From assembly GCA_032622095.1 (NCBI GenBank), contig CP136067.1, forward strand, positions 197,060,052-197,124,051: a stretch of 64,000 bases of DNA, in the 5' to 3' direction. Below the pieces are notes generated by a model. The model was not told the DNA's origin. It made no database searches and saw only the letters and a list, made by a program, of their open reading frames with translations. The first letter of the stretch is position 1; each line of letters opens with the position of its first letter. This DNA comes from Siphonodentalium dalli. Lineage: Eukaryota; Mollusca; Scaphopoda; Gadilida; Siphonodentaliidae. Both the position numbers and the translations under genes were made by a program. Below are positions 1,241 to 59,389 of this stretch, in pieces.

Positions 1241-1642
1241 TTAACCCTTTACCCAACAGAACGGCCCTGTGCCAATGCATTCTCTTATATATGCGAGTCG
1301 ACCATAGGTCGCCTCGCATATATAAGAGAATGCATTGGCTTAACACATTAAAAATTATAAAATTGTTAAAGAATGTAAGAAAAAAATTGTAAAAAGTGTT
1401 AAAAAAAAGATTTTTTTTAGGCCAATGCATTCTCTTATATATGCGAGGCGACCTATGGTCGACTCGAATATATAAGAGAATGCATTGGCACAGGGCATAA
1501 CTGTAACTATCACAATGTGGTCAAGGAGCCGGTTCCAATGATATCCATATTTGTATGGTTTTATTGAGACAGACCGAAGATATTTTAGGCTGTTGAAGCT
1601 TTATTTGGCCGGTTTTGGCCGGTTTGTTGGGTAAAGGGTTAA
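1241..1642. mobile_element. TTAA element (CCCTTTACCC ends) with double hairpin cassette
   Basis: Ends TTAACCCTTTACCCAACA / TGTTGGGTAAAGGGTTAA at a TTAA target, piggyBac-like. Inside, two mirrored hairpins (about 1264-1340 and 1424-1498) flank an AT-rich spacer. A tail of about 140 bp (cataactgtaactatcac...) then leads to the right end. Confidence 0.85.
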
Positions 1643-2322: not shown

Positions 2323-2701
2323 TTAAAGGTACTCAATCCGAATTAACGCTCGCAAATTACTATTTCCTTGGCTTCTTGGGTAAAAAAATAATTGATTCGA
2401 GTCGAGGAGCCCACCCAATCTATTATTTTAATTTTAAGTGGCCCAATAAACAGTCGACGAGAAGACTTTCTCTGATCAAATTGCAAACGAAGATGGATAT
2501 CTCTAAATCAAGTGGCTTTTTTGTGTCAGATATTTGACAAACGCCAAAATTTCGATGACTATACTATACTATAGATGACTGGTTAGCATTATTTTTTGGG
2601 CAAATAATCGATTCTGACAACTGAAGCGGCATTTCAAAAAATGTTGTTGTTGTTGGAATCTGATGATATGGGGACCGTCGAATCGGATTGAGTACCTTTA
2701 A
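2323..2701. mobile_element. TTAA element (AGGTACTCAATCC ends)
   Basis: TTAAAGGTACTCAATCC at left and GGATTGAGTACCTTTAA at right. The interior has ttgttgttg and a dispersed core also seen at 29207-29654. This is the reference entry for the family. Confidence 0.8.
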
Positions 2702-3097
2702 CCCTTTACCCAACAGAAGGGCCCTGTGCCAATGCATTCTCTTATATATGCGAGTCGACCATAGGTCGCCTCGCATATATAAGAGAATGCATTGGCTTAA
2801 CACATTAAAAATTATAAAATTGTTAAAGAATGTAAGAAAAAATGGTAAAAAGTGTTAAAAAAAGATTTTTTTTAGGCCAATGCATTCTCTTATATATGCG
2901 AGGCGACCTATGGTCGACTCGCATATATAAGAGAATGCATTGGCACAGGGCATAACTGTAACTATCACAATGTGGTCAAGGAGACGGTTCCAATGATATC
3001 CATATTTGTATGGTTTTATTGAGACAGACCCAAGATAATTTAGGCTGTTGAAGCTTTATTTGGCCGGTTTTGGCCGGTTTGTTGGGTAAAGGGTTAA
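2698..3097. mobile_element. TTAA element (CCCTTTACCC ends) with double hairpin cassette
   Basis: Near-identical in structure to 1241-1642. Hairpins lie at about 2724-2800 and 2877-2948. It shares its left TTAA with the right end of the 2323-2701 element. Confidence 0.85.
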
Positions 3098-4252: not shown

Positions 4253-4719
4253 TTAAAGGTACTCAATCTTATCATATGCTCCTAAATTACTATTTCTTTG
4301 GCTTTGGGGGTAAAAAATATTTGATTCGAGTCGAGGAACCCACCCATCAAAGCTCAGAGTGATCAGATATCAATTTTTGAAGTTTGGTATTTCTTGAGAT
4401 GTGTATTAATATGTGGCCCAGAAACACGCAGTCAAACGGAGGGTCTCGGACAAAATTGCGGATGAAGATGGATAACTCTAATATTATGTAGTAATATGGT
4501 CAAATTTTGTGATACTTTAGTGATAATACGGCCATATTTTTTTGAACAAAATGTTGATAAATAACAAGTTTTGGGAAATTTGATACCCTAGTTGACAGTG
4601 GTTAGCATTATTTTGTTGCAATAAATTGATTCTGATAACTAAAGCGTATTTTGAAGAAATGTTGTTGTTGTTGTATCTTGATGGTATGGTGACCATCTGA
4701 TCTGAATGAGTACCTTTAA
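4253..4719. mobile_element. TTAA element (AGGTACTCAATCC ends)
   Basis: Both ends present at TTAA, moderately diverged. In the GULP1-like gene, downstream of the candidate micro-exon. Confidence 0.78.
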
Positions 4720-5106
4720 TTTTGCACAATTTATGTAATCATTGCTCTCAACAATAGTTTCGTTGAATTTGCCATCATCTAAATTTTCTAAAAAGTCTAT
4801 CTTTCTCTTAAATTCATGAGTGTTGAGCAGACGACACACCTAGTATGTTATCCTTCTTTCTGTATATCTGCCATTATCACAAGTTCAAAAAAGGGACGAA
4901 ATATTGGAGAAATTTACATAAATCTGGAACATAGTTCTTCATCATGAATTTGAAAAACATTAGTCATAAACGGAATATACCCTATCTCTTAAGAAATGGA
5001 ATGAAACTCTTTGCGTTATCCATTAACAGTGGCGCCAGACTTGAAAATTTGACCTCCTCGATCCTGGTCTAATTTACAACACAATCATTTAGTTTTAGAC
5101 ATTTTG

Positions 5107-10240: not shown

Positions 10241-10454
10241 CGGTAATGCCCTAAGTAATCGACTCTTTAACTACAGCAGAATTATGGGTAATTTTTCAGG
10301 ATTTAGTCGGAAATATGGCTTGTTGCCATTCATCGGAAAGCTCTCCCTGAGAGCTTTCCGATGAATGGCAACAAGCCATATTTCCGACTAAATCCTGAAA
10401 AGTTACCCATAATTCTGCTGTGGTTAAAAGAGTCGATTACTTAGGGCATTACTG
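10241..10454. mobile_element. family A palindromic MITE
   Basis: A full copy, TA-flanked, 48 bp after the GULP1-like stop codon, so probably transcribed in its 3' UTR. Confidence 0.88.
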
Positions 10455-12248: not shown

Positions 12249-12439
12249 TTAACCCTTTCAGTGCCAAGTCCGATTTTTGTATCGACACATATTTCCTTAA
12301 TCTTTTTTTAAATTTATTGATTATAGTAATGTGATACATTGATGGAAATAGCTCTAAGAGCTATTTATCAATAAATTTCAAAAATGATCAAGGAAATATG
12401 GGTTGATACAAAAATCGGACTTGGCACTGAAAGGGTTAA
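12249..12439. mobile_element. TTAA element (CCCTTTCAGTGCC ends), simple palindrome
   Basis: Ends TTAACCCTTTCAGTGCCA and complement, with arms running nearly to the centre (agctctaagagct). This copy has no hairpin cassette and shows the basic form of the family. Confidence 0.85.
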
Positions 12440-13715: not shown

Positions 13716-14915
13716 TTAGCTCCACTTACTTTGTAAGTTTGAGCTATTGCCATGGGTTGGCGTCCGTCGTCCGTGTGTGCGTGCATGTGTGCGTCCGTCA
13801 ACAATTTCCTTTGGCGCGGGCTACAGGTCTGATCTTTATGAAATTTGTCATGAATGTTGACATTGACATGTAGATGGGAACGAGTCATTTTGGGGTCATT
13901 CGGCCAAAAAATATGACCGCTGGTGGCCATCTTGGATTTCAAAATTAAATCCATTGGCGCGGGCTACAGGCCGTACTGTTTGTGTGATCATCATAAAATT
14001 TGTCATAAATGTTGACATTTACATGTAGATGGGAAACGAGTCATTTTAGGATCATTCGGCCAAAAAACATGGCCGCTGGTGGCCATCTTGGATTTTACTC
14101 TTTGCATCACTAAATCCTTTGACACATCCTACAGAACACATCTCTGATCCGATCATCACCAAACTTCATATGGATCATCGGGGCGACCTCTAGATGGAAC
14201 GAGTCATTTTGGGGTAATTTGGCCAAAAAACATTGCTGCCGTCAGCCATCTTGGATTTTACTCTTTGCATCACTAAATACTTTGGCGCGGGCTACAGGTC
14301 GTATCTTTGGTCTGATCTTTATGAAATTTGTCATGAATGTTGACATTGACATGTTAATGGGAATGAGTCATTTTGGGGTCATTCGGCCAAAAAATATGGC
14401 CGCTGGTGGCCATCTTTGATTTCAAAATTAAATCCATTGGCGCGGGCTACAGGCCGTACTGTTTGTCTGATCATCATAAAATTTGTCATGAATGTTGACA
14501 GTTACATGTAGATGGGAACGAGTCATTTTAGGATCATTCGGCCAAAAAACATGGCCGCTGGTGGCCATCTTGGATTTTACTCTTTGCATCACTAAATCCT
14601 TTGACACATCCTACAGACCACATCTCTGATCCGATCATCACCAAACTTCATATGGATCATCGGGGTTACCTCTTGATGGGAATGAGTCATTTTGGGGTCA
14701 TTCGGCAAAACAATATGGCCATTTTGGATTTTACTCTTTGTATGACTAAATATTTCTACAAAATCCATTAGCATGTCTTATAGACCGATCTCATTTACAT
14801 CTTGTCTTACTTAGACATTTCAATTAGCACCTTTCCTAATTCCTCCATATACTGTCAACCATTAAATTATTCCCCTACCTAAGTTGAGTTACAGTGTCAT
14901 TGACACTTTCATTTA
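13716..14915 (-). mobile_element. tandem-core element F (pearl/Helentron-associated type)
   Basis: The - strand 3' end has the hairpin acttacaaagtaagt followed by ggagctaa. A (ACGG)-like tract lies inside (about 13768-13800), then core units of ccatcttggattttactc type. The other end is aatgaaagtgtcaatgacac (14896-14915). It lies within the 13636-16399 hAT element. Confidence 0.65.
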
Positions 14916-16982: not shown

Positions 16983-19524
16983 TTAGCTCAACTTGACAGT
17001 TTGGGTTGGCATCCTTGCGTGCATCCATGCGTCAAAAATTTCCTAACAGGCCGCATCCCTCATCTGATCTTCACTAAACTGGATATGTAGCTTCAGGGTG
17101 ACCAATAGATGGGAGTTATCAAATTTTTCTGAATTTCGATGAAAAACATGGCCACCAGCAGCCATCTTGAATTGCAAATTTGAATCGATCGGCACACCCA
17201 ACAGCCCGGATCATTTTTAGTCGAGTTTTTTTCCAAAACTCGACTTATAGTTTGATGAGGGACGGCGGACGGGCGGGCGGGCGGGCGGCCTGTTTTACTT
17301 ATAACTCAACCGTTTATTGACGGATTAAAAAAAAATTTGGTGTGTGAGTACATATCCATCCACGTAAGCTGAGTTATGGCCCTTTGCCATTTTTCACTGA
17401 TTTTAGGCTCGTTAGCGCAACAACTTCAACAAACGTTATCTGATTCGATTGAAATTTGGGATATAGGTGTCTCCCAAGAATATCTCGGACGAGTTCGAAA
17501 ACCGGCCTGGTCCGATAAAATTTGATAGAGTTATGGCCCTTAATTAGTCATTTTTCACGAATTTTCAGCTCGTTAGCGCGATAACTTCAACAAACGTTAT
17601 CCGATTTGATTGAAATTTGGTATATAGGTGTCTCCCAAGAATATCTCGGACGAGTTCGAAAACCGGCCTGGTCCGATAAAATTTGATAGAGTTATGGCCC
17701 TTAATTAGTCATTTTTCACGAATTTTCAGCTCGTTAGCGCGATAACTTCAACAAACGTTATCCGATTTGATTGAAATTTGGTATATAGGTGTCTCCCAAG
17801 AATATCTCGGTCGAGTTCGAAAACCGGCCAGGTCCGATAAAAATTGATAGAGTTATGGCCATTAATTAGTCATTTGTTCACAAATTTTCAGCTCGTTAGC
17901 GCGATAATTTAACAAACATCATCCTATTTGATTGAAATTTTGATATATAGGTGTCTCCCAAGAATACCTCGGACGAGTTAGAAAACCGGCCCGGTCCAAT
18001 AAAATTTGATAGAGTTATGGTCCTTAAGTAGTCATTTTGTACGAATTTTGAGCTCGTTTGCTCGTTCAACAAACGTCATCCGATTCAACTAAAATTTGGT
18101 ATATAAGTGTCTTCCAATAATATCCTGGACGAGTTCGAAAACCAGCCTGGCCCAATAAAATTTGATAGAGTTATGGCCCTTAATTAGTCATTTTTCGTGA
18201 ATTTTTAGCTCGTTAGCGCGATAACTTCAACAAACGTCCTCCGATTTGTTTAAAATTTGGAATAGACGTACTTGCCAAGAATATTTCGGACGAGTTCGAA
18301 AACCAGCCTGGCCCGATAAAATTTGATAGAGTTATGGCCCTTAATTAGTCATTTTTCGATTTTACCTATTAATTAGTCTACCGATACTGATGCTCACCAA
18401 TTGGCGGTAGCCACCGGCGGTAAGCCACCGAAAACGAGACACAGCATCTCTGATGCCACCTCTTGTTTAATTTTGCAGCCACGATTGTGATCACCTGTAG
18501 ATGGGAGCTATCGAATTTGAACGATTTTCGATGAAAAACATGGCCGTTGGCAGCCATTTTGGATACCAAACTTCATATGGATCTTCAGGGTGACCTCTAG
18601 ATTGGAGCTATCAAATTTGAACTATTTTGAATGAAAAATATTGCTGCCGGCAGCCATCTTGGAATTTACTATTTGCATGACTAAATTATTTGGCACACTC
18701 AAAGACCACATCCCTCATCGGATCATCTCCAAACTTCACGTGGATCTTCGGGGTGACCTCCAGATGGGAGCCTCCCATTTTGACCGAAATTTTTTGGAAA
18801 AAAAATGGCTGGCAGCAGCCATCTTTGATTTCAAATTTGAATCCATTGGTATACCCCGCATTTATTTGAAAATTTACATGCATGTTTAGAATCACTTCTA
18901 GATGGGAGCTATCAAATTTTGAACAATTTTCGATGAAAAACATGGCCACCGGCAGCCATTGAGCCTATTTTGATATTGGTTGAAAATCATGGCTGCCAGT
19001 GGCCATCTTGGAATTTACTCTTTTATGACTAAAGCCTTTGGCGCACCCTACAGACCACCTCCTGCATCCGTTCATCACCAAACTTCATATGGATCTTCAG
19101 GGTAACCTCTAGATGAGAGCCTCATAGTTTGACCAAAATTTGTTGAAAACCATGGCATCCAGCGGCCATCTTGGAATTTACTCTTTGTATGACTAAATCC
19201 TTTGGCGCACCCTATGGACCACATCCCTAATCCGGTCATCAAATTTCATAAGGATCTTTGGGGTAACCTCTGGATTGGAGCCATTGATTATTTCTGAAAT
19301 TCATTATAAAATATGGCATCTTGGATTTCAAATTTGAATCCATCGGCACACCCTGCAGCCCAGATTTATTGGTGAAATGTTTGAAATAATAATTTCATCT
19401 ACACCATACAAGCCCTTTACTGTAACTTTTTGGCTTTCCTTCTTCTTTGTCATTCTATTCATTGCTCAGCAAAAAATAAACTCCTTCCCAAGTTGAGCCA
19501 CAGTGTCATTGACACTTTCATTTG
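16983..19524 (-). mobile_element. tandem-core element F, interrupted by element G
   Basis: Starts gttagctcaacttgaca (complement of the gagctaac end) and finishes aatgaaagtgtcaatgacac (19506-19525). Core units with gccatcttggaatttactc and acttcatatggatcttc recur. Element G occupies about 17216-18466. Confidence 0.65.
17216..18466 (-). mobile_element. tandem-core element G, about 161-bp unit, six copies
   Basis: The hairpin agtcgagttttttt / aaaactcgact sits at one end (17221-17252) next to a GGC/GGAC-rich tract. The anchor gctcgttagcgc occurs at 17407, 17568, 17729 and 17891, with variants at 18052 and 18208. The unit length matches bivalve BIV160-type satellites. The other end is cacctcttgtt, as in 15185-16232. 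Confidence 0.75.
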
Positions 19525-21715: not shown

Positions 21716-22106
21716 TTAACCCTTTACCCAACAGATCGGTCCCGGTGCCAATGCATTCTCTTATATATGCGAGTCGACCATAGGTCGCCTCACATATATA
21801 AGAGAATGCATTGGCCTAACAATGCATTGGCTTAACACATATTAAAAATGATAAAATTGTCAAAGAATGTATAAAAATATTATAAAAATTGTTAAAAAAT
21901 GTAAGAATTTTTTTTTTAGGCCAATGCATAAGGCATAACTGGGCATAACTGTAACAGGGCATAACTGTAACCATCACAATGTGGTCAATGAACCGGTTCC
22001 AATGATATCCATATTTGTATGGTGTTATTGAGACAGACCGAAGATATTTTAGGCTGTTGAAGTTTTATTTGGGCGTTTTTGGCCGTTTTGTTGGGTAAAG
22101 GGTTAA
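21716..22106. mobile_element. TTAA element (CCCTTTACCC ends), one intact hairpin
   Basis: Same ends as 1241-1642. The left hairpin (about 21745-21830) is intact; the right hairpin has collapsed to gccaatgcataagg. Confidence 0.8.
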
Positions 22107-23467: not shown

Positions 23468-23741
23468 TTAACCCTTTCAGTGCCAAGTCATATTTCCTTG
23501 ATCATTTTTCAAATTTATTGATTATAATAATGTGATACATTGATGGAAAGAGCTCTAAGAGCTCTTTCCATCAATGTATCACATTATTATAATCTATAAA
23601 TCAATTATAAATCATTATTATAATCAATAAATCTAAGAGCTCTTTCCATCAATGTATCACATTATTATAATCAATAAATTTGAAAAATAATCAAGGAATA
23701 TGGGTTAATACAAAAATCTGACTTGGCACTGAAAGGGTTAA
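23468..23741. mobile_element. TTAA element (CCCTTTCAGTGCC ends), centre duplicated
   Basis: As 12249-12439, but the central gagctctttccatcaatg part is repeated. Confidence 0.82.
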
Positions 23742-24325: not shown

Positions 24326-25264
24326 AGAGCTACGCTGGGCGTGCAATATACTTGGGTCGGCGGAAACTGGTAAAAAAAGGGGCATAACTCTGGTAAAAAT
24401 TGGCGGACGGAACTCAAATTTGAACTTGACCTGTGTTTTGGTGGGAGAAAAGTAATATACCAAATTATCATTGAATCCGATAAGCTCTAGTAAAGTTATC
24501 ATCCGGACAACAAATTTCAGGGATTTTCTAAGTCAAATTACGTCAAATAAGGGGCATAACTCCGGTGAAAATTGGCGGACGGAACCCAAATTCGAACTTG
24601 AGCTGTCTTTTCTCCTAATAAACCCGCATACCAAATTTGATTGCAATCGGTTCACTCTAACGAAAGTTATCATCCGGACAACAAATTTCAGGGATTTTCT
24701 AAGTCAAATTACGTCAAAAAAGGGACCATAACTCTCGCAAAAATTATCTGATTAAAACGAAATTCGGACTTGAGCTGTATTTCGATATATGTAATCCGGG
24801 TTTTGCGTATAAACATTCCAAAATCGAGTTATCATCCGGAAACCAAAAAACATAAGAAAAACTGAATTTTCTGAGTCGAAAAAGGGGCATAACTCTGCCA
24901 AAAATGGTCGGACAGAACCCAAGTTCGAACTTGACCTGTGTTTTGGTCGGAGAAAGTAATATACCAAATTTGGATTCATTCCGATAAACTATACTAAAGT
25001 TATCATCCGGACAACAAATTTCAAGGATTTTCTAAGTAAAAAAACGTTAAATAAGGGGCATAACTCCAGTGAAAATTGGCGGGCGGAACCCAAATTCGAA
25101 CTTGAACTTACTTTTCGGCTAATAAACCCACATACCAAATTTTACTAATTTTGGTTCACTCTAACTAAAGTTATCATCCGGACAACAGGTTAACGGACGG
25201 ACGGACGCCCGCCCAGACGGACAGACCAATACTATAATATGGCCTTTTTTTCAAAAGGGCGTAT
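24326..25264 (+). mobile_element. tandem-core element H, about 170-bp unit, five copies
   Basis: Starts acaagagctacgctgg. Core anchor ggggcataactc (or variants) at about 24378, 24551, 24722, 24885 and 25055. A (GGAC)n tract lies at 25194-25226, then a hairpin of ggcctttttttcaaaagggc and the end. Pearl/Helentron-associated layout. Confidence 0.75.
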
Positions 25265-26299
25265 AAAAATCAGTTTAGTTGCTCAAATCCCAATATTTCT
25301 AACCAAAAATATCTGAAAAACTCAACTTATGGTTTTGGCTAGGGTCGGTTGGCGGGCGGGTCCAAACCTAAATAACATAGCCGTTTATTAATAGAATCTG
25401 ACAATTTTTAGGTGTTTATTGTCAAGAGCGACAGCTGCACACAGAAAATCAGGCCTGTCCCGACTTTCTAACCAGAGTTATGCCACTTGTTTCTATTAAT
25501 AGCAATTCTATTAACCCTTTACCCAACAAAACGGCCAAAACCGGCCAAATAAAGCTTCAACAGCCTAAAATATCTTCGGTCTGTCTCAATAGAACCATAC
25601 AAATATGGATATCATTGGAACCGGCTCCTTGACCACATTGTGATAGTTACAGTTATGCCCTGTGCCAATGCATTCTCCTATATATGCGAGTCGACCCATA
25701 GGTCGCCTCGCATATATAAGAGAATGCATTGGCACAGGGCCGTTCTGTTGGGTAAAGGGTTAATACAAATATCTTGATCGAATTCGAAACCAGGTTTGAC
25801 CAATTTTTTTTTACCTGATGAAGTACGTCCCTTAGTTTGTCTTTTTTTTTTAGCAATTATAGGAAATTTATTTCCGATAGCGCATTAACTTGAACAAATG
25901 TCAATCAATTTAATTCATAATTTAGTAAATGGATCTTTCACAACAATATCTCGAACGAGTTCGAAAACCAGGTTTGTCAAATTTAATATTTACCTGAGTT
26001 ATGCCCTAAGTTTGTCTATTTCTATGACTGTTAGTCCGATAACTTGAACAAACATCAACCAATTCCATTCATATTGGGTATATGGATCTTTGACAAAAAT
26101 ATCTTGATTGAGTTAAAAAACCCGGGTTTGTCTGATTTTATTTACCTCAATTATGGCCCTTAGATCTGAGTTATCAATTTTTAGTGATTCACTCGTGGGC
26201 AAAAAAAAAATTACCAGAGCCATCTTTGATGCACAATTTAACCCTTGATATTTATTTGGCCTAATATTTAACACAGCCATCAATACCTGCAACGTCATA
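25265..26299. repeat. degraded element G-like cores around the 25511-25763 TTAA element
   Basis: ttggcgggcggg at 25349, then units with ttcgaaaccaggtttg and tgagttatgccct at 25440-25490 and 25775-26160, resembling the 161-bp cores. Confidence 0.6.
25511..25763. mobile_element. TTAA element (CCCTTTACCC ends), single hairpin, reverse orientation
   Basis: A 253-bp form with one hairpin (about 25665-25740) and no AT-rich spacer. It is simpler than the double-hairpin form and could be a precursor or a derivative of it. Confidence 0.8.
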
Positions 26300-26593: not shown

Positions 26594-27162
26594 TTAACTG
26601 TTCTGAGTAGCATATGGTTTTTCTCCTCGAGTGAGATGCGGAGGATTATTTTACGAAGCGCTAGCCGATTGAAAATAATTATAATCCTCAGCATCTCACA
26701 AGAGGAAAAAACCATATGTGACCCGCCATATCAAATCCAGTTGCAAGTCGAGGATTTTTTTACCCTGTGCCAATGCATTCTCTTATATATGCGAGTCGAC
26801 CATAGGTCCACACTCGCATATATAAGAGAATGCATTGGCCTACAACAATTTTTTACAATTTTAAATAATTTTTTTCTTGTATTCTTTAGACAAGTTTTAT
26901 AATTTCACCCATACATATATATGTGTGGGGCTCCCTGCAGGGTAATAGATGTTTTTTATTTTATGTCCTAAAAATTGTAAGAAACATTTATTTAAAAAAA
27001 AATGATAAAAAATTGTTAGGGCCAATGCATTCTCTTATATATGCGAGGCGACCTATGGTCGACTCGCATATATAAGGAGAATGCATTGGCACAGGGTAAA
27101 AAAATCCCGACTTACGACTGGATTTGATATGGCGGGTCACATATGCTACTCAGAACAATTAA
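26594..27162. mobile_element. TTAA element (TGTTCTGAGTAGC ends) with double hairpin cassette
   Basis: Ends TTAACTGTTCTGAGTAGC and GCTACTCAGAACAATTAA. Subterminal arms (catatg..., gacccgccatatcaaatcc) enclose two mirrored hairpins (about 26762-26840 and 27019-27098) around an AT-rich spacer. It is a third family carrying the cassette. Confidence 0.8.
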
Positions 27163-27239: not shown

Positions 27240-28126
27240 TAGGGTCCGGCGAAGCTTCGAGATTCGATTCGATTCAAAATCGTCTTACTGATTCGATTCG
27301 ATTCGAAATCGATCTTGTGATTCGAATGTAGTTCGAATCACCATATTAACCTCATTATGTGCGAACTTGTTGAACAGCGTGTCCTACAAAAGCTCTAAAA
27401 CAAACGCACGCAGATGTCGTTGCGAACGCCGTCGGTGCACGAGATGCGGTCCTGTTTCGTTCAGTAAATTATTGCTCTTATATGGGTCGTCGTGGCGGCG
27501 AAATATCCATATCATCGATCCATCTCTTGTGCCCTTCACTACTTTTTATTTATCCAAAGTTATAATGGCGGAAATTAAAAGTTATTTTGAATGCAGCATT
27601 GACAAATTCAGGTGCAAATCGTGCACGACTGTACTATCAGTTCAGAAAACGGGCACTACCTCCCACTTATGGGCACACCTTAGCCGCAGTCATCCTGCAA
27701 TCCACCATAAGGGCAAAAGAAAAGAAAGACTCAAAACGAAAATTAACCGGCAACACGTCTAGTAGTAGCGGCGATGCGGGCGAGCCCCTAAAAAGAAACA
27801 GTTGTCACAAGCCACCTTTACGATGAAGAAAGAATTGGGCCCTGATGAAAAAAAAAGTACGACAGAGTACGATTTATCTCGTCATATTTTCATGTGCCGT
27901 TCTCAACATTTTGTATTGTGACGCAGGTCAACACGGCAAGCTGCCAAACACGCACAGGTGATGGTATGGGGAGACACTCGCGCTGCAGCGGGATCGCCGA
28001 CATAAATCTAGTTATTGTCGATTTACCACGGGGAGTAAGATTCGATTCGAGATTCGATGTGAAATCCGCGTGTCTGATTCAATTCGAGATTCGATTCGAA
28101 CAAAATCGCCGATTCGCCGGACCCTA
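27240..28126. mobile_element. hAT-type DNA transposon, internally deleted, with transposase remnant
   Basis: Terminal inverted repeats TAGGGTCCGGCGAA / TTCGCCGGACCCTA are flanked by the exact 8-bp duplication cctaacat (27232-27239 and 28127-28134), the hAT hallmark. Subterminal clusters of gattcgattcga occur at both ends. The interior (887 bp total) encodes only the N-terminal part of a transposase. Confidence 0.9.
27565..27921 (+). pseudogene. hAT transposase N-terminus with BED zinc finger, broken
   Basis: The segment MAEIKSYFECSIDKFRC, then KSC...TGTTSHLWAHLSRSHP has the BED finger spacing: C-x2-C, then H-x4-H in AHLSRSH. BED domains bind transposon ends in hAT transposases. After the finger the frame meets TAG codons near 27760; a neighbouring frame gives TGNTSSSSGDAGE, and the original frame resumes as KKKQLSQATFTMKKELG and then YDLSRHIF. 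This shows small frame slips plus loss of the catalytic hATC region. Confidence 0.75.
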
Positions 28127-29654: not shown

Positions 29655-29922
29655 ACACTTCACCGTGATAAAATAATCATTGCTGTCCCTTGAAGATGTT
29701 TTAACCTTACTCTCCCATTCAGTTATAAAGATATACATTTAGAATGGTCTATTATTAATATGGAGGGGTATTCAGGTAATAAAAGCAGACGACAGACAGA
29801 TGAAAAGCTAATACAAGAGCAGAAGTATTAATATTCTTTGGAAGGAAATGTTCAGATAATAAGTTCAACAAACATTTGTTGAACCTATTATCTGAAAGAG
29901 ATTAGAGATACTGATGGGTATA

Positions 29923-31561: not shown

Positions 31562-31774
31562 CAGTAATGCTCTAATTAATCGACCTCTTAACCAAAGCAG
31601 AATTATGGGTAACTTTTCAGGATTTAGTCGGAAATATGGCTTGTTGCCATTCATCGGAAAGCTCTCCCCGAGAGCTTTCCGATGAATGGCAACAAGCCAT
31701 ATTTCCGACTAAATCCCGAAAAGTTACCCATAATTCTGCTTTGGTTAAGAGGTCGATTAATTAGAGCATTACTG
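31562..31774. mobile_element. family A palindromic MITE nested in another inverted repeat
   Basis: A full copy (variant end GATTAATTAGAGC) inserted in a repeat related to the one at 8165-8246. The host resumes on both sides (about 31440-31560 and 31776-31990). Confidence 0.85.
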
Positions 31775-34835: not shown

Positions 34836-35324
34836 TTAACCCTTTCAGTGCCAGGTCCGATTTTTGTATCAACCCATATATCCTGTGCCAATGCATTCAC
34901 TTATATATGCGAGTCGACCATAGGTCGCCTCGCATATATAAGAGAATGCATTGGCCTAACAATTTTTCATCATTTTTTATTATTTTTGACAATTTTTGAC
35001 AATTTTAATAATTTTTTCTTATATTCTTTAACAGACTTATTTTGTAGGTTTAGTGCCAGGGAATCTTACGTTTTTCATGGGCATCAAAATTATTACTATG
35101 AATACTTGGTGATAGTTTTGAGTTATAACATGCCCTTAAGGTTTTATCTAGTTTGTTTTTAAATTTGCTATTGCATACTTAAGCATACCCAAATTTTTTT
35201 TAACTAAAACCAAATAAATATCGAGAATAAAAAATTCAAAACATTTTTTTTAAATTTTTAGGGCCGATTTTACAGACTGTAAATTAGGGCCGATGAGATC
35301 GGCCCCTGGCACTGAAAGGGTTAA
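34836..35324. mobile_element. TTAA element (CCCTTTCAGTGCC ends) with hairpin cassette
   Basis: The outer ends match 12249-12439, but the interior holds one hairpin (about 34882-34955) followed by about 340 bp ending in repeats of gggccgat. Confidence 0.82.
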
Positions 35325-36376: not shown

Positions 36377-36589
36377 CATTAATGCCCTAAATAATCGACT
36401 CCTTAACCACAGCAGAATTATGGGTAACTTTTCAGGTTTTAGTCGGAAATATGGCTTGTTGGCATTCATCGGAAAGCTCTCAGGGAGAGCTTTCCGATGA
36501 ATGCCAACAAGCCATATTTCTGACTAAATCCTGAAAAGTTACCCATAATTCTGCTGTGGTTAAGGAGTCGATTACTTAGGGCATTACTG
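36377..36589. mobile_element. family A palindromic MITE flanked by 55-bp direct repeats
   Basis: A full copy with TA ends. The sequences just outside (36321-36375 and 36591-36645) are imperfect direct copies of each other. It sits immediately beyond the MyD88 stop codon. Confidence 0.85.
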
Positions 36590-43100: not shown

Positions 43101-46100
43101 TTACAGTAGAGACCAGATCAAAATTAACAGAACACACTTCAGTACCTTGACAAAACAACATGTTTGCAGTTTATTTGAACGAAAGTTGATGCATTATTTT
43201 GGAGCTTCCTCTTTCAAATGGTATATACTATGGAATATGTTGTATATATTGTGATCTGGGCATTCAAAAATTAAGTGGGCCTTTACTGTGTCTTCAAAAT
43301 GTGACGAGAATTATTAGTCCTTGTTGTTGGGGTGTTCCCAGAAAGAGAGCCTTTAACTCTTTCAGTGACAAGGGCCGATCTCATCGGCCCTAATTTACGG
43401 TCTGTAGAGTGCCAAGGCTGATAAAATCGGCCCTAAATTTGTTTTGGGTATGCTTAAGTATACTATAGCGAATTTAAAAACAAACTGGATTAAACCTTAG
43501 GGGCATGTTATAACTCAAAGCTATCACCAAGTATTCATAGTAATAATTTTGATGCCCATGAAAAACTTAAGATTCCCTGGCACTAAACCTACAAAATAAG
43601 TCTGGCACTGAAAGAGTTAAAGAATATAAGAACAAATTATTAAAATTGTAAAAAATTGTAAAAAATAATAACAAATGATGAAAAATTGTTAGGCTAATGC
43701 ATTCTCTTATATATGCGAGGCGACCTATATATAAGAGAATGCATTGTCACAGGGTATATGGGTTGATACAAAAATCGGACTTGGCACTGAAAGGGTTAAT
43801 ATAATAATGTTCACAAATTCAAACCAACAATGTTGAAGTCTGACAATCAAATGATTGAACTAATTCTGAATATCAACACAATCAGTTAAAATTTAAAATA
43901 AGTGAACAAATTGAGATCCGACAACCATTGGTTGAGACATCTACCCAGAGGGACGGACAGACAGATGGAGGATTGATCATGGGGGTATAATAAATGAATG
44001 CACATTAGTCAAATAGATAAACCAGTATACCAACTACAGGTATGTCCTAATTAATCGACTCCTTAACCACAGCAGAATTATGGGTAATTTTTCAGGATTT
44101 AGTCAGAGATATGCTTGTTGCCATATTTCCGACTAAATCCTGAAAAATTACCCATAATTCTGCTGTGGTTAAGGAGTCGATTATTTAAGGCATTATTGTA
44201 TTCACCGAGGTCATCACTCATCTATGTTGTTTAATAAGTATATATATTACCTATCCTGTATGAGTTTGGCACTGATGGAGTATTTGGACCCTCCAGGCAA
44301 GTCGTCTCTCATTGGAACAAGCAACTTGAGTTTATGTGGTTCTACTTCCAACTTATCGATCATCTTCTGTACAAATCTCAGATCATCAGTGTTCTCGGGG
44401 TTATAGCAGACAAATGCATCATACAACTGACCAGGTCCATCTCGCACTGTTGATCAAATAGGCAGCATTAGTGTATATCTCAGGTTAACAAGTAATTTTG
44501 GGGAGATAACAGTTCTCATTAGGCCAGTTGATCAAATTAAAAAGCCAGTATAGATAATTTACAATATTTTTTTACCCTGTGCCAATGCATTCTCTTATAT
44601 ATGCGAGTCGACCATAGGTCGCCTCGCATATATAAGAGAATGCATTGGTCTAACAAATTTTTATAATTTTTTTAAAATAAATGTTTCTTAAAATTTTTAG
44701 GACATAAAATAAAAAACATCCATTACCCTGCAGGGAGACCCACACATATATAGAAGCATATAGAAGAGTGTCGTCTGCTCATGTTTGTCTGGGGCTCTGT
44801 ATGGGTGAAATTATAAAATTGTTAAAGAATACAAGAAAAAATTATTAAAATTGTAAAAAATTGTTAGGCCAATGCATTCTCTTATATATGCGAGGCGACC
44901 TATGGTCGACTTGCATATATAAAAGAATGCATTGGCACAGGGTATATGGGTTGATACAAAAAAACATTTTTGTTGAGATTTGACGATCTCTACGAGAGCG
45001 CACCAGTCATACTTCCTTTCTGACTATGTCACCGGCTGGGTACTAGTCTATGTTGCTATATTTAGCATGGGATTTTCCAGCAAAAATGGCGTAATGACAG
45101 AATGGAAAATCAGAGCGATAGTTTAGTTGATGATTTTCGCAAGCTACCCGTCAAAATTGCAGAAAATTAGAACTCTTGTGTTTGACAAGTTAAATTTTTT
45201 TTAGAACAGATTGACACAGCATAGATCAGTAATTTGTGATAAAACATTTCTTTACTGAATACTCATTGGCAACTAGTTACCTTTGGCAGCCAAAATTTCC
45301 CGCCAATCAATAGGAATCCTTATGCACTTGTACATGTGCAGTAATTCCCTAAATAAGCGACTCCTTAACCACAGCAGAATTATGGGAAGTTTTTCAGGAT
45401 TTAGTCGGAAATATGGCTTGTTGCCATTCATCGGAAAGCTCTCACTGAGAGCTTTCCGATGAATGGCAACAAGCCATATTTCCGAATAAATCTTGAAAAA
45501 TTACCCATAATTCTGCTGTGGTTAAGGAGTCGATTATTTAGGGCATTACTGTATTATCTTATCAAAGTTATCATCTGTCTGTCATCTGCTTATATTTCCT
45601 GAACATTTCTTCGGATGGATAGACCATTTAAATGTACATGTATACATTACATGTATATTAACCCTTTCATGAATGAAGAATCCTTAAATTTTGTAAAAAC
45701 CCTATGCCGATGCATTCTCTTATATATGCGCGTCTCCCATAAGAGAAAACATTGGCCTAACAATATTGACCATAACTGTGTAAACCAGTGCATTTTCTTA
45801 TACATGTGGGGCTCCCTAAGGAAGACTTGCATATATAAGAGTATGCACTGGCACAGGGTCTTTAATGCTGCACCCGCACAGCTCCTGTCATGAAAGGGTT
45901 AAACTAAACCTGAGAATATGTTCAGGAAAGAAGGTGTTAATGTCCTATCTTATCCCTCCTTTCATATTACATAGAAATACCGTAACTCAGGGGTACAAAT
46001 GAACCATGACCATTTACCCCTTTCAGTGCCAGGTCCGATTTTTGTATCAACCCATATACCCTGTGCCAATGCATTCTCTTATATATGCGAGTCGACCGTA

Positions 46101-49100
46101 GGTCGCCTCGCATATATAAGAGAATGCATTGGCCTAACAATTTTTCATCATTTGTTATTATTTTTTACAATTTTAATAATCTTTTCTTATATTCTTTAAC
46201 AGACTTATTTTGTAGGTTTGGTGCCAGGGAATCTTACGTTTTTCATGGGCATCAAAATTATTACTATGAATACTTGGTGATAGTTTTGAGTTATAACATG
46301 CGCCTAAGGTTTTATCCAGTTTGTTTTTAAATTCGCTATAGCATGCCCAAAAAATTCAACCCAAAAAACAAATTTATTTCTTATTTTTTTTAGCCTAAAA
46401 ATATTTATTTATTTTTTTTTTTAAGGGCCGATTTTACAGACCGTAAATTAAGGTCGATGAGATCGGCCCCTGGCACTGAAAGGGTTAATACCAGTACCGA
46501 CTGGTACTGATGCAGAAATTATTGCAGTGAGGTTCAGATAATTGAATACATACCATCTTGTATCGTCATGAATTTAGATTCATCAAAGTCCATATCAGAT
46601 TGCTCTGTAACAATCATTGGCGTACAAGTCGATACTGGAAACAAAAGAAGAGATCACATTAATTTATTTAACTATGGTAGGATGGTACATGTATATGCTT
46701 TTGATTTATAATAAATCATTCCAAAAATGTTAAGTGTTAAGCAAGCTGTTTCAGCATAGTGCACCATGTTGAAAACTGGAATATATGAAACAAGAGCATA
46801 GATGGGGCATGGCAAAATATGCTTGTCGTAATTACAACAAAGGGCCATAACTCTGGTGAAAAATGGCAGGCAGAGCCCAAATTTGAATGTGACATATATA
46901 CCAAATTTCAATGCATTCAGTTCAGACTTACTAAAGTTATCATCCGGAAACAAAATTGTGTGCAAATCCAACAAAAAGGGTCATATCATTGGTAAAAATT
47001 GGAGGGCGGAACACAAATTTCGTGCTAGTAAACCCATATACCAAATTTCATTCCATTCAGTTGAGACTATACTATCGCTACACTTCAGGTTTGTCTATTA
47101 AAGTTTACATATAACATCATGCATTCGTTGTAGTTATTCCTTTAATACTTTATGTTCGGTCGAGCTTAAAGGGGTACTGTACGCCACATGTTGTTGTTGG
47201 TTTCTATAGTCTCCGAGTCGGAGAATAAGGTAACAATTTTTCCATTATTTGAAAGTCTGTTGAGTACGAAGTCATGTTACGGATGACAAATTTACCGGAA
47301 TGCAAAAATAAAAATTGTCGTTGTCGAGTAATTTTTGTAAAGTTTTCAACCAAATGAATCAAATAAAAGTTATATTATATGCATACTAGTCCCATATAAT
47401 CATTTAAATTATTGTATCGTCGCTAGTCAGTGAGTGGCTTGAGTGTTCTCCCCGTATCATCATAATATTTTAAGCAATCGTGTGTGCGATCGGTTTAAAA
47501 ATCCAGTATCCCTCAATTACTATTTTTGATTACGTAATTTAATTGACGCCATTTTATGGCACCAGTCATAAATTCAATTTATATCAAATTATTAACTTTT
47601 AAATTATTAAATTTTAAGATAGCCTATTAACCTGAGCGTTTACAGAATACATCTTCGACTCAAATTACTTATGTTTCTATATATTATCGATATTAGATCG
47701 TTGTTGTCACCGGAAATTTAATGAAAATGGCATACAGTACCCCTTTAAAGCGAGTTAGAACATAATTAAAGTTATCCGGAAACAAATAAAAAGTGATTAG
47801 CAGACGGTCAGGAGGATGGACAGACCAATAACATACAATAATGCGCTAAATAATCGACTCCTTAACCAAAGCAGAATTATGGGTAGTATTAGGTACACTG
47901 AGATCTTTCCGATGAATGGCAACAAGCCATATTTCCTACTAAATCCTGAAAAGTTACCCATAATTCTGCTTTGGTTAAGGAGTCGATTAATTAGAGCATT
48001 ACTGTATGTCCCGTTTGAAAAAAATGTGCATATAAAAACTACTAAGGCATTGAAATGGAATCCTTGTGTCCTTGATCCCTTTCAATACTAAATATGCATT
48101 GATGAGTAGTTCATTTTGGAAATGTACATATAATAAATTCTTGTATTTAATATCTGTCTGTTTTATTACCTGAACACCCCTCCAAAGTAATCCCCATTCC
48201 TAAAATAAATAACTCTAAGGAAATAACAAACTATCGTCCAATTAGTATCCTACCATCTTTCTCTAAACTGCTTGAAAAAATAATGCAAAAACGACTAGTA
48301 GATTTTCTAAATGAACACGAAATCTTAAATAAACACCAATATGGATTTAGACCAAATCACTCAACATTTCATCCGATAATGCACCTTCTAGATCATCTCG
48401 TTAAAAATAACGATATACCGACACGGGATTCCACCTTAGCCGTATTTATCGATTTATCAAAAGCATTCGATACGATCGACCACAACATATTAATATCGAA
48501 ACTTGACCACTATGGCATCAGGGGTGTAGCGATGTCATGGTTCCATAGTTATCTGAATGATAGGAGGCAATACGTTGAATATAGTGGGAGTACCTCTAGC
48601 CTAATGAATACATCCTGTGGGGTCCCCCAAGGCTCAATTTTAGGGCCGATAATTTTTTTAATATACGTGAACGACATGGTAAATTCCACAACAATGGACA
48701 TCTTATCGTATGCCGACGACACCACACTGTTCACAAGCGGTAAAGATGGTGAACTAGTATACAGTTATGCCAACAAAGAATTAGCCAATGTATCCGATTG
48801 GTGCTGCTGTAACAAACTTTCAATAAATATTAATAAAAGCAATTATATGCTTTTACACCCACAAAACAATGACAAAAAATGGAATACTTCGAAATTAAAG
48901 CTGAATAACATTGAACTAAACCGAATAGGGAATCTTGGGCGTGAATCCTCGACAAAATTTTTAGGCATCCACATTGATGAGAACTTGACATTCAATAAGC
49001 ACATATCAGTAATCTGCTCGAAAATATCACATGCAATCTACTGCATGAATAAGGTGAAACATTTTTTCCCAAGTAAAGCATTGAAAACATTGTACTATGC

Positions 49101-52100
49101 ACTGATTCAAAGTCACTTAGTTTATGGTATCCAAGTATGGGGTCATGTTCCGGAAGTCAAGAGAATATTCCTATTACAAAAACGAGCATTGCGTATAATA
49201 TGCAATAAGAAGTACAGGAGTCACACAGATCCACTCTTTAAAAAAGAGAATATCTTGAAAATACATGACTTACACACTCTAAATTCCTCAATTTTCATGC
49301 ATGACTGGTGTTATAACCGCCTGCCCGCGTCTTTTGGAACCATGTACAACAAACGAGCAAAATCAACCCCAAGACACCCGAATCCCGTACTGTTAGAACT
49401 CCCTAGAACCAAGTGGTCAGGAAAACTACCACACCACGCCTTCCCAACAACATGGAACAATATGGAAAAAGACCATACTGCTTGCCAAAGCAGGCACACA
49501 TTCAAGAAGCGCTTACAGATAGCCATGCTGAAAAATTACTCCGAAAATGTACGCTGTAAAAACAAAGGATGTCCCGATTGTGCTCAATAAACTACACGGA
49601 TAATCATAGTCATACTCGTTGTAGTTGTATAATCATAATACTATTCAAATAAGTTTCTTCTCAGCTGCATGTGGACACACGTCGCATTCTCGTTCCTAAC
49701 ATGCCCATATATACTGCCACACATCATAAATGTTACCGTACATTATCATGATTTATCTAACGGGACTATTACCATACACCACCAGATATACATAAACAGA
49801 TATATATATGTAATATTGATAATTTGAATTATCCCAAAACCTCACTCAACAAAGAGACTTTCCGACGATCCATATAGATTCTCATTCTGTTTACCTATAT
49901 AAAGATGGCGGTATCTCTCGCCTGAAACCGTTGTAGCAACAGAAAACAAAATATTTTGTTCCTAATATATACCCATGGAACTGGAACTGGAACTGAAACT
50001 GTTAATATGTTTTAGATAATTTGAACAGTTCAAAAAATTCCTATGGAAAGATAGTACATCTTCGATCTGATAAATCGTCTGGATTGGCTCACAACCACGA
50101 CAATACTCATTTGTGATATGCCCTAAGTACTAGATTCTAAAAAGTTTTATATATGACTATAGTCTGTACAAGTGCGTGGATCTGAAATACAAGCATCTAT
50201 GCTATTACGTATAGTTATACTTGTTTTAGGGGGTAGCAGGAAGACAGCCCGATAGGGCTAAGCTACCCCCGACAATACACTGTTATAATTTATTATGTAT
50301 TACTGCCACTGTATCATTCGTGTGTATTGTAAATAAACTATCCTATCCTATCCTATCCAAATGAATAATAGATCGTTCCAATGTATACTTCTATAACTGA
50401 GTGGGATAATCCATTTAGTATATAAAGGGTTAAAGGGTGAGGGATGCAGTTGGACACCCCCACCTCTAGCCCTGTCTCTTTGTCTCTATAGTTAAGCAGT
50501 GGTACATATACAATACATACCTTCTGGTACTTGGTCGGGTGTCTTCAAATCTCTTTCCTTCGCATCCATGTAGGCTCTACAATCTTTAACTAAAAGAAGA
50601 AATAATGTATGGCATATCATATTAAATGGTTTGTGTGGTGATGTGGCAGTTCTCACTACTAACATTTCGAACAAAATCAAAGAACAATTAGGTATCACAG
50701 CTAATATTCACCCAGTTCCAATTAAAATTATAACAGATATTCACCATCAAAGAATGGACAAACTACTACAACCAGAAGCCAGGAAAATATATAAATGAAG
50801 GAGGCCTCTCAACGTGCAGTTGTCTGCTACACACGCCCACAAGACTAGACATATGAACAGGTATCCCAAGACATCTTTTAAACAAGGTAAAATAATGTCA
50901 AATGGAAGAGCCTCTCCCAAAACCAATAAATAAGAAAAGCCCCAATATTCATATAGGAGTGCATCAGTGCAATCCGAGCTATATATGGGTGCTAACAATC
51001 CAGAAATTGGTAAATATGATCATCGGTTTCTTGCTTTACTTTCAGTAGTTCCCATCTTTCAGGGAGTGACCCATACCTGGCATACATTATACATGCTATA
51101 TACATGTACAGTGTACTTAGTACATGTTTTGTACACCCACATTTGAAGATGTCACGTTGACCTGGTGATTACCATGCATTTGTGTGTGTGGTCACATTCC
51201 ACGTATGTATATGTAATTATGTATATGTACGGGTAATACATTTAACATTTTAATATATTGCAAAACTCTGGGTCTTATGTAATGTTATGTTGATGGACTA
51301 CAACTTTCCTCTTGTATATAGTCGCCGCAACACAGAAATTGTGCGAATATACTGGTACAAGGAGAAGGTGATCAAGTTGGAAGGAGAACTGGCTGAACCA
51401 CTCAAAAAAAAAGTGATAATCGCATTTAACCCTTTACCCAACAAACCGGCCAAAAACGCCCAAATAAAGCTTCAACAGCCTAAAATATCTTCCATCTGTC
51501 TCAATAACACCATACAAATATGGATATCATTGGAACCGGTTCATTGACCACATTGTGATGGTTACAGTTATGCCCTGTGCCAATGCATTCTCTTATATAT
51601 GCGAGTCGACCATAGGTCGCCTCGCATATATAAGAGAATGCATTGGCCTAAAAAAATTCTTTTTTAACACTTTTTACCATTTTTTCTTACATTCTTTGAC
51701 AATTTTATAATTTTTTCTTACATTTTTTAACATTTTTTATAATATTTGTCAACATTCTTTGACAATTTTTTCATTTTTAATATGTGTTAAGCTAATGCAT
51801 TCTCTTATATATGCGAGGCGACCTATGGTCGACTCGCATATATAAGAGAATGCATTGGCACAGGGCCGTTCTGTTGGGTAAAGGGTTAATAGGAATCAGA
51901 ATCTTAAAGATAAGCTAGTCAGAGCTATAATGTAAACTTGGTTAATTCAGTATCTAAAGTTCATCTGTTCTCTTTTTTTCTATTTCTATCTCCCACATTT
52001 CCCACGATGGTTACGTCGTTGTGTGGCTATCTCAGTTTTCATGGTGAATGCCCCATTAATTACATTTTGTGGCGCATATACTAGTTTCTCTTTAAAGCAG

Positions 52101-55100
52101 TTTTTATTTTAAACCTTTCGGACATCGATTCGGTTTTTAAGAGAGATGTCAGATAACTAATTATCTGCATAATATAACATATACATGTCACTTTATACAT
52201 GGTGTTTGTGTTGGATAGTGTTTTTGGCTCGGATTGTCAGTGGCTTCAAAGCATTGTGCATGGAGTTATGGATCTACAATGGAGAGTAACTGTGCATATA
52301 GCTTACTAGTATACTGTCAATTAGGCTCAAAACAGGAGTAAAACACTTACCACCTTTTTGAAAGAAATATGTTGGTTTAACCTTTGTTTATTTATTTAAT
52401 GTACTCAATCCGATTCGATCACATATTGTCAGATTCCAACAAAAACAACATTTTTGAAATGCCGATTCAGTTATCAGAATTGAGTAATTGCCCGAAAATA
52501 ATGCTAATCATAGTCAACTATAGAATAAAATTTACCAAAACGTGTTATTTATCAACATTTTGTTCAATAAAATTTTGCTGGTTTGTCAAATATCTTACAC
52601 AAAAAAGCCACTTGATTTTAGAGTTATCCATCTTCATCCGCAATTTTGGTCAGAGACCCTCTTCTCGTCGACTGTTTACTGGGCCACCAAAAATTATCAG
52701 TGGTGAAAAATAATAGATTTCAAACATCGATATCTGATCACTCTGAGCTTTGATGAGGGTGACGACCCCCCTTTTCGTACGCCGGATGCGGGGTCTGTTA
52801 TGGCGTATTCCGGATGCCAGACCACCGTACGCCGGATGCCGTCGGCCACATATATCGGATGCCGGATGCTTCCATTGATAATTTTCTTGACGTTAAACAG
52901 CAAAAACACAACGAAATTACGTCCGCTAATTTATATTTCTTTGCTCGGACACTTTATTTTCCACAATTTAGCTAATTTTACGTCTCGTTATCACATCTGA
53001 CATATCTAAATATAATTGATGTCTGCTTGGCAATAATTTTGAATATGTAATTAATTTTTATTAAATTTTGAAGAATGTAGTTAGAAGCCTGCATGCTACT
53101 TCAATTTAATAACACCATTAACAAGACAGTCAATGACTGTGGAGACGTTCACCAAACTGTAAAGACTAGGAAGACTGGGACTCGGAAGACCATAAGAGTT
53201 AGTACTTGTCATATTCACTTAAATTAAAAACAAGTAGCCATAAAGAGGGACATAGCCTAGAGGGTCTCCGTTGAGCAGTGGGTGTCCACCTTGAAATATG
53301 GTCCAGATCCCCCAACCCCACATAGTCCATAGTCTGCTCCCTCTCAACTGAAGCAAACACACTCCCAAGTTCGTAAAATTCCTTTGCACATGTTGGAATA
53401 ATACAACTGACACTTCAAGCTTTCCTAACTGTGACAAAGTTACAACCTGACATGCTCCCCTGTTTTAATGGTGGACCCCATTCAAACGAATTTTTATTCC
53501 AACTCTCCATAGGCCATTTACACCAAATGCCATTTCTTGATTGGTCGAACCCATTTTAACAAATATGTAACCCAGTCCCAAGTAACACAATGATCCTCCA
53601 TACTGGTTACTACATATAGGCTAAATATGACTGATGGCTCTTGAGGAGCGCCATTTTAAGAATTACTTTGGGGGGAAGAGTTATGTCAATGGTCGCACCC
53701 CTATTTGACCTGGTGAACCCATTTCAACAAATCTGAACCCAGTCACCCAATGACTCTCTATACCAAATGTATACCAAATATGCCAAACGGTTCTTGAGAA
53801 GATGTTTTAAAAATGAAAGTGTCAATGACACTGTAACTCAACTTGGAAAGGGAATAATTTCATGTGTTAAAGTCAATTGAGTTATTAGAAATGTGGAAAG
53901 TTGAAAGGCCTAGTTATGCAAAGAGTAAAATCTAAGATGGCTGCTGGCAGCCATGTTTTTTTGCCGAATGACCCCAAAAATGATTAATTCCCATCTACAT
54001 GTCATTGTTAACATCCGTAACAAATTTCATGAAGATCTGACCAAAGATACGACCGGTAGCGCGTGTCAAAGGATTTAGTCATGCAAAGAGTAAAATCCAA
54101 GATGGCTGCTGGCGGCCATGTTTTTTTGCCGAATGATCCCATAATGACTCGTTCCCATCTACATGTTAATGTCAACATTCATGACAAATTTCATAAAGGT
54201 CAGACCAAAGGTATGACCTGTAGCCCGCGGGGAAGGAAATTGTTGACGGACACATGGACACAAGGACGACGGACGCCAATCCATGGCAATAGCTCAAACT
54301 TACAAAGTAAGTTGAGCTAATAACTGATGAGGGAAAGAATTATGTCACTGGCTCTGACCAATTCTGAATCCTAGTCACCCATACCAAATATAAGCTGAAT
54401 AGGTCTTATGGTTCTTGATAGGAAGACATTTTAAGAATTACAATGGATGGCCAAGTTACGTCCCTGGCTCCGCCCTTATTTGACCAGGTGACCTCATTTT
54501 AACACATCTGTATCCCCGTCACCCAAAAACCTTCCATACCAATTATAAGGTAAATAGTCCCGATGATTCTTGAGATGTTTTAAGAATTACTATGGATGGA
54601 AAGAGTTAGGTCCCTAGATTCTTGAGAAGATGTTTTAAGAATTGCTATGGATGGAAAGAGTTAGGTTCCTAGCTATGCCACTTTTTTGACCATGTGACCC
54701 CCATTTGAACAGAACTGAATCCCAGCCACCTAGGGACCATCCACACAAAATATGTCTCAATTCTTCAGTTCAGGTAAGCTAAGAAAATGCCTCCATCTTT
54801 CTCATCCAGTTTCCGATATGTAATCGCCTGAGAAAACAGGTATTTAGTTTTACTGGCCTAACTGTCAGATTCACCATTCACACTTGGCCTTGGGAGTGGG
54901 GTTGTTATCATAAGCAGGGTAATTTATATACAAACTCTCTTACAGGCAGAGAAATTTAGGCTATTAATCAATGCTGTCATTCCAAACAGATTTTGTTAAC
55001 ACTGCCATTTCATTTATTACTTTATAATCAATGTGACTTCTATATGGTTTAAGCATGTTCTCGATTTTAGACTGATTTAAACCAAATTTTGTTGTCACCC

Positions 55101-55913: not shown

Positions 55914-55948
<35 letters not shown>

Positions 55949-58276: not shown

Positions 58277-59389
58277 GTTAAATTTTTTACAAACTTACAT
58301 AGCACTTTCACCAGTTTCAGAGTTTGCTTTATTTGACAAAATTAGAACTTAAAATCGACACGGAGGAATAACCACAATACACATGGTGGACACCGAATTA
58401 AAAACCTTCAGCGCGACAGCTTGTTAGAATGAGAAAACATCAGGAAACTATCAACGATTGACTCTCCACGACTGACTCTCCTTGTCACGAACTTCCTGGT
58501 CCATTCGCAAATGGGCTATCCTCAATTTGCGCAAGCTAGATAAAAATAGAATATTTATATTTAAAACATTCATTGACCCAATGAATCATAGAAATCGGAT
58601 ATAAACAGACTTTATATATCCGATTTGTATCGAATGAATTGAATCGAATGTATTTATTCAGTTCGCAAGGGGATTCCCCCAGAAAAAAACCCCACCACCC
58701 ACTCATTTGTTTTACTTTTTTTTAACACTGTAATGACGTTGGCGTTTCATAATTATGGCGCGTGGGAGACACAAGTTCGAGAATTTGGTTCATTTGGGGG
58801 GTGGGGGGGGGGGGGGGGTCCTGCTAAACAACGACACGAACACAAACGAATCCAGGTCCAAAAAGCGGAATACATGTATTGAAGGTGAAATGGGTTTGTG
58901 GGTGTCCTTTCTATGTGTATGTGACCAAAGTTATTTGCATTATTTGAATACAAAGCTACTAAACAACGTTTAATCCGTGCTATAGGGCCAATGTCATGTT
59001 CATTTGTGATGTTTTTTCCATGTAAAAGCGAAATAGATCATACATAATGATATGACATATTTAAATAGATCATACATAATGATATGACATATTTAAAGTC
59101 TTTGATATACTTTCTAATAAAAGTTGAAAAAAGGAAGGCGCCCATGCTCACATTTCCATGTATGTGTGATTGAATAAAAAACGTTCCAACATGCCCCGCT
59201 CTCCCCTACATGGGCCATGGGCGTTTTATTTATAGAAATGGGAATTTTTTGGGACGGATTAAAAGTCGAACTGCGACCCGGAGACCGAGTCCGGTATAAG
59301 GTGTAGTTGGGAATTCTGTGAGATGCACGAGAAACGTTCAGTGATAAGCCGTATATAGTTGTTGTAATAATTTGAAGGATTAGTTGCCC
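58277..59389. other. MyD88 5' flank and presumed promoter
   Basis: No TATA box or initiator can be assigned with confidence. Poly-G runs at 58796-58818 break the sequence; the short frames on both strands there are by-products. Confidence 0.35.

Follow-up and report, generated by a model that had tools for sequence, protein, structure and literature searches.

MITEs of the Tc1/mariner type such as Stowaway have TA on both sides and terminal inverted repeats, piggyBac-like MITEs have TTAA flanks and CCCT-type ends, and Spy elements insert without target duplication between runs of T and of A. Nested MITEs and MITE multimers were reportedly described in plants by Jiang and Wessler in 2001. The locus considered here is a 64-kb window (the whole stretch of DNA analysed, 64,000 nt of Siphonodentalium dalli, CP136067.1), and all counts and comparisons below were made within it. 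A short element with a hairpin at each end, which we call N, lies there in several host families (A, B, C, and E) and in one further copy (D). As with nested MITEs, small non-autonomous elements appear to have been inserted into each other and multiplied jointly; the difference is that here one element is present in several families with another target rule, and that its terminal repeats are themselves full hairpins. N resembles Stowaway-like Tc1/mariner MITEs in having TA on both sides in C and D as well as terminal inverted repeats, but no transposase was seen, its ends (CCCTGTGCC) matched no named family, and TA is missing in A and E. Hosts A, B, and E, on the other hand, are like piggyBac-like MITEs in having TTAA on both sides (the left TTAA of one copy, B46, is changed) and CCCTTT ends, whereas host C has TGTTCTGAG ends, which are not of the CCCT type, and no transposase was found in the scanned ORFs.

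The spread of cargo by a MITE burst is known from MER6 carrying the V domain of a SINE, as described in an excerpt of that report (PMC6887750). In the MER6 of that excerpt and in the present case alike, a foreign conserved segment would be spread by a MITE burst; the MER6 cargo comes from a SINE, however, whereas N looks like another DNA transposon and is found in several host families. For nested LTR elements, an excerpt of a further report gives a weak preference for palindromes (PMC6911290). Nesting of mobile elements is already known, and the points of note are that N would have been captured more than once and that its hairpin varies so little; a published report of element N was not found among the matches listed, as judged by title and the start of the abstract.

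Hairpin copies and element N

The 75-nt module consists of CCCTGTG and the 69-nt hairpin; a profile of it, which was built from 15 copies and used with a cut-off E of up to 1, gave 17 hairpin sites, each matched on both strands and all located within contexts A–E; this agrees with the original prediction, in which a near-palindrome had been counted about 17 times. The contexts are as follows, the strand being that of N:

1241..1642, minus strand: host A1, from TTAA to TTAA, with N and its two hairpins at 1265-1495
2698..3097, minus strand: host A2, with N and its two hairpins at 2722-2950
21716..22106, minus strand: host A3, with a full hairpin at 21741-21815, a spacer, and a stub of the second hairpin
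25511..25763, no strand given: host A4, with a single hairpin with both outer ends at 25658-25739, the spacer being absent
51426..51889, plus strand: host A5, with N and its two hairpins at 51573-51865
34836..35324, plus strand: chimera B34, composed of a B arm, the first half of N (from 34881), and a second TTAA element minus 12 nt of its inner end
43353..43799, minus strand: chimera B43, with the first half of N at 43617-43754 (hairpin internally deleted), an intact TTAA, and the second TTAA element at 43353-43620
46014..46488, plus strand: chimera B46, with the layout of B34; the left TTAA reads TTAC, in register with CCCCTTTCAG
26594..27162, plus strand: host C, a palindrome with TGTTCTGAGTAGC ends, whose central TA holds N (26763-27096) and whose left arm contains another palindrome
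44575..44942, minus strand: copy D of N, which has 368 nt and a TA on either side, with a hairpin pair at 44581/44868
45658..45902, no strand given: host E, with CCCTTTCATGA ends and a degenerate N at 45700-45858

Two sites each are found in A1, A2, A5, C, and D, one each in A3, A4, B34, B43, and B46, and two degenerate ones in E. The outer ends that had been claimed for the three families were also confirmed: namely, the five A elements (1241, 2698, 21716, 25511, and 51426) all have TTAACCCTTTACCCAACA exactly at both ends (10 of 10), CCCTTTCAGTGCC-type ends are present at 34836, 43353 (there CTCTTTCAGTGAC), and 46013, and the third type, TGTTCTGAGTAGC, is present at 26594.

The usual centre of the hairpin is TCGACCATAGGTCGC, and the 15-nt centre alone is matched 13 times with three mismatches or fewer, as compared with 0.49 expected; none of 100 shuffles reached 13. 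The 27-nt arms differ at 0-2 positions in 13 of the 14 listed copies, and the score of 12 in the remaining copy (27021) is due to a one-base insertion that shifts the comparison. When three of the 17 copies were folded as single-stranded DNA, all three gave z of -11.5 to -14.0 against shuffles, and the whole N of host C gave z of -22. The hairpin had been described as always lying between ccctgtg and cacaggg. This is true of the outer ends, with the variants CCCGGTG (A3), TCCTGTG (B34), and CCCTATG (E), but the inner ends read CCTAACAATT or CTTAACACAT, and the B copies retain one outer end only.

The layout of N is CCCTGTG, hairpin, AT-rich spacer, hairpin, and CACAGGG. The two longest copies, C and D, when oriented by their spacers, align from end to end with the spacer included; they differ by one 45-nt indel and several shorter ones (1-2 nt), and 6 of the 173 spacer columns are mismatched. 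The spacers of A have a TTCTTACATTCTTTRACAATTTTATAATTT stretch in common with those of C and D, while those of B correspond to the first half, and all are recognisably the same. Since the spacers are homologous across A, B, C, and D, the repeated unit is N and not the hairpin alone; judging from these alignments, the hairpin is the terminal repeat of one element and no loose cassette. The idea of a transferable module thus stands insofar as near-identical hairpins lie inside unrelated arms, but the unit that it referred to has to be replaced by N.

N is short (~335-370 nt in C and D), is present in several copies, and has terminal inverted repeats of 75-77 nt, as is the case with MITEs. It is flanked by TA on both sides in C and D and on the sole visible side in B; the flanks are TG and CC in A and, around the degenerate N, AA and TC in E. 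With eight flanking dinucleotides counted as independent, which was our own choice and in which B and D share one side, TA is found at 4 of 8 (P 0.002 at a TA frequency of 0.081). Neither an empty site of N with a single TA nor an autonomous N was found in the window. Nearly all copies of N are located inside other elements (16 recognisable host contexts), the exception being the pair in D.

Host families and chimeric elements

The junctions of N are common to all five A elements, barring point changes and the rearranged A3, and these common junctions are explained by one capture before the amplification of A. The A elements fall into two subfamilies, which are distinguished by 6 fixed differences in 146 arm columns. 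When the flanks of A1 were joined, an uninterrupted paralogue was found at 29791-29896 (79% over 106 nt; the target there is TTCA), and for the joined flanks of A2 such a paralogue was found at 4637-4788 (70% over 159 nt; the target there is TTAA). These uninterrupted paralogues argue that the A unit moved as a whole. For 8 of the 12 elements, the joined flanks gave no junction-spanning match within the window, and the matches for B34 and C were either weak or in the element's own flank; the ends of B43 and B46 were misplaced by one or two bases in this search. We also counted the rows of tetramer pairs with matching ends, namely TTAA 47, TATA 84, ATAT 99, AATT 46, TGCA 39, CTAG 6, CATG 5, and GATC 2. 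This count was discarded as evidence, because it does not discriminate TTAA (47) from TATA (84) or ATAT (99), and the status of TTAA rests on the exact family ends together with the uninterrupted paralogues of A1 and A2.

With its inserts taken out, host C forms a TTAA-ended palindrome, of which the arms differ by 3 mismatches and 1 gap. N sits there between TTTTTTTA and TAAAAAAA, at the central TA, which is one of the 8 TA sites of the empty host. A second palindrome (26611-26718), which matches its own reverse with 75% over 114 nt, is present in the left arm of host C only, lies between two copies of CATATG, and can be read as a TA-flanked insertion. Directly downstream of host C, an ORF at 27292-27762 has a match to the BED zinc finger (E 7.1e-05, Pfam).

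Copy D is flanked on one side by 20 nt of a B arm (44943-44962) and on the other by unrelated sequence, and no TTAA host element was recognised around its hairpin pair. The original prediction that the cassette sits inside TTAA-flanked elements is therefore borne out for A, B, and C but not for the pair in D. Host E adds a further type of ends, CCCTTTCATGA, with a degenerate hairpin pair, of which the right module has ~15 mismatches to the consensus and the left module has large gaps.

Each of the three filled copies of the second family is a chimera in which an N-bearing end is joined to a second TTAA element. B43, when reversed, reads TTAA, B arm, CCTGTG-type end, deleted hairpin, start of the spacer, TTAA, second element, and TTAA, where the second element has 268 nt with both TTAA included. 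B43 retains the inner TTAA and the inner end of the second element, while B34 and B46 are without 12 nt there. The outer flanks differ among B34, B43, and B46, which argues that the chimera moved in one piece, bounded by the outer B end on one side and by the far end of the second element on the other. Two further B-ended elements (12249-12439 and 23468-23741) have another, palindromic interior, that of 23468 being partly doubled, and there are at least two kinds of interior behind B ends. While these two, which had been proposed as cassette-free copies, do have B ends without the hairpin, their interior is different, and they are hence not clean empty sites.

Probable capture of N and the sameness of the hairpin

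Our main reading, to which we assign a probability of about 0.62, is that N is a non-autonomous TA-target DNA transposon (MITE), was captured about four times by TTAA MITE families, and was amplified as their cargo. N would insert at TA, with each terminal inverted repeat being a 69-nt hairpin after CCCTGTG; it would have been captured by separate TTAA-target MITE families about four times (in A, B, C, and E), in C at the central TA, and would then have travelled as cargo when the host moved. Since the hairpin is palindromic, an inverted pair of hairpins is at the same time a pair of near-direct repeats, and recombination or slippage can delete the spacer; a collapse of this kind would have removed the spacer between the hairpins of A4 and left one hairpin. 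In family B, a second TTAA element may have landed in a TTAA of the spacer of N, after which the outer B end and the distal end of this inserted element would have moved together, as one new chimera. Because the junctions of N are common to the A copies and a single chimeric arrangement to the three B copies, about four captures suffice for the 17 hairpins, which need not be regarded as so many separate acquisitions. We infer the collapse in A4, the order of events, a Tc1/mariner-like transposase for N, and piggyBac-like transposases for the hosts. A central position of N in B is suggested by one arm, and central insertion is seen in C only and may not be a rule.

Several observations nonetheless speak against parts of this reading: A and E have no TA flanks, which is against N as a TA inserter; the window yielded neither a single-TA empty site nor an autonomous N, and hardly any copy of N lies outside other elements; D has the 20 nt of B arm on one side only, which is not explained by plain insertion; and the hairpins, if mere cargo in A, should diverge like the rest of A but seemingly do not. 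We also considered insertion of the Spy type, between T and A runs and with no target duplication; this fits C but fails for A and B.

The sameness of the hairpin was compared in 14 of the 17 modules, with both E modules and the B43 module as well as the stub of A3 being left out. Between any two of these, no more than 4 of the 75 columns are different, and each copy has its own changes relative to one consensus. It is conceivable, albeit unlikely, that the hairpin itself is selected or homogenised, for example as an aid to transposition or replication, and was passed on by gene conversion or template switching instead of by insertion of N. Consistent with this, fixed differences between C and D on the one hand and A1 and A2 on the other are found in 0 of 150 columns of the hairpin modules and in 10 of 72 columns of the spacer (P 8e-6; one flank column per end was removed before the test, changing 2/152 to 0/150, and with these columns P is 0.0003). 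Also, A1 and A2 differ from A5 at 14 of 223 columns of arm plus spacer and at 1 of 150 columns of the modules (P 0.006), where changes private to A5 are indistinguishable from fixed ones. The absence of TA flanks in A and the part of a B arm in D would likewise be in line with transfer of the hairpin. The five-copy test in A, however, is not significant (6 of 146 columns in the arm vs 0 of 75 in the module, P 0.10; the arms of host A were cut to their last 146 nt), and in family A private changes are as frequent in the module as in the arm (P 1.0). Furthermore, these hairpin tests were chosen post hoc with the alignments already seen, AT-rich spacers align poorly, and the spacers travel with the hairpins.

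The overall pattern would fit constraint on the source copies followed by neutral decay. For A, with N as passive cargo, a constraint on the hairpin is hard to explain, and this is the main loose end of the cargo reading. That the hairpin is a selected cis-acting aid to the spread of unrelated TTAA elements, such that those acquiring it were amplified and it stayed unchanged while arms and spacer diverged, we consider improbable.

It is very improbable that all hosts are diverged forms of a single TTAA family that always had the hairpins. Although A, B, and E each start with CCCTTT after TTAA and CCCTTTCA is common to B and E, the arms of A, B, and C are unalignable past the first bases while the hairpins differ so little (≤4/75 columns), C has other ends, and the B-ended elements at 12249 and 23468 have no hairpins. 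Neither a single set of outer ends nor ends diverged from one family, the two outcomes named as fatal to the original prediction, was found within the window, since near-identical hairpins lie inside elements with unrelated arms. Least credible is a hairpin acting as a promoter or small-RNA source, since beyond the CCAAT and TATATAA-like strings, and the double-stranded RNA that a transcribed stem would give, nothing speaks for it, and Rfam gave no match at gathering score across the whole window.

If capture of N as cargo is true genome-wide, a single DNA transposon would have been taken up several times by families that follow another target rule. An exchange of ends would also have created a new chimeric element, of which B43 still shows the junction, while part of it is missing from the two other copies. 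With a hairpin this uniform, it becomes testable whether internal hairpins help MITEs to amplify.

Searches for relatives and other features of the window

Among the 33 ORFs listed in the window, 10 were scanned with Pfam, and no transposase domain was found in these 10. Viral contigs searched with four exact patterns, bacterial and archaeal genome contigs searched with one pattern, and plasmids searched with copy D (blastn) gave no match, which says little about animals because these sets are bacterial/archaeal, viral, or plasmid. A 13-nt string of the element occurs in published papers as single occurrences, apparently by chance, and strings of 9-10 nt gave non-specific matches among the matches listed; both were set aside.

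The window is eukaryotic and probably from an animal, as it contains an ORF with a death domain and another with a reverse transcriptase domain (Pfam). The former is a minus-strand ORF at 57920-58294, of which the best solved relative is MyD88 (E 3.3e-10), and the latter encodes 479 aa at 48151-49590 (RVT_1, E 4.8e-38). Tandem arrays with a period of ~155-171 nt are located at 13827-14720, 17388-18357, 24373-25187, and 53911-54224, and a run of 33 G at 55915-55947 is either genuine or an assembly artefact. We also noticed near-perfect palindromes of ~161 nt with CCACAGCAGAATTATGG-type arms at 10267-10427, 31588-31748, 36403-36563, and 45365-45525; the arms at 31588 are CCAAAGCAG, and in some copies the inverted arms run past TTAA.
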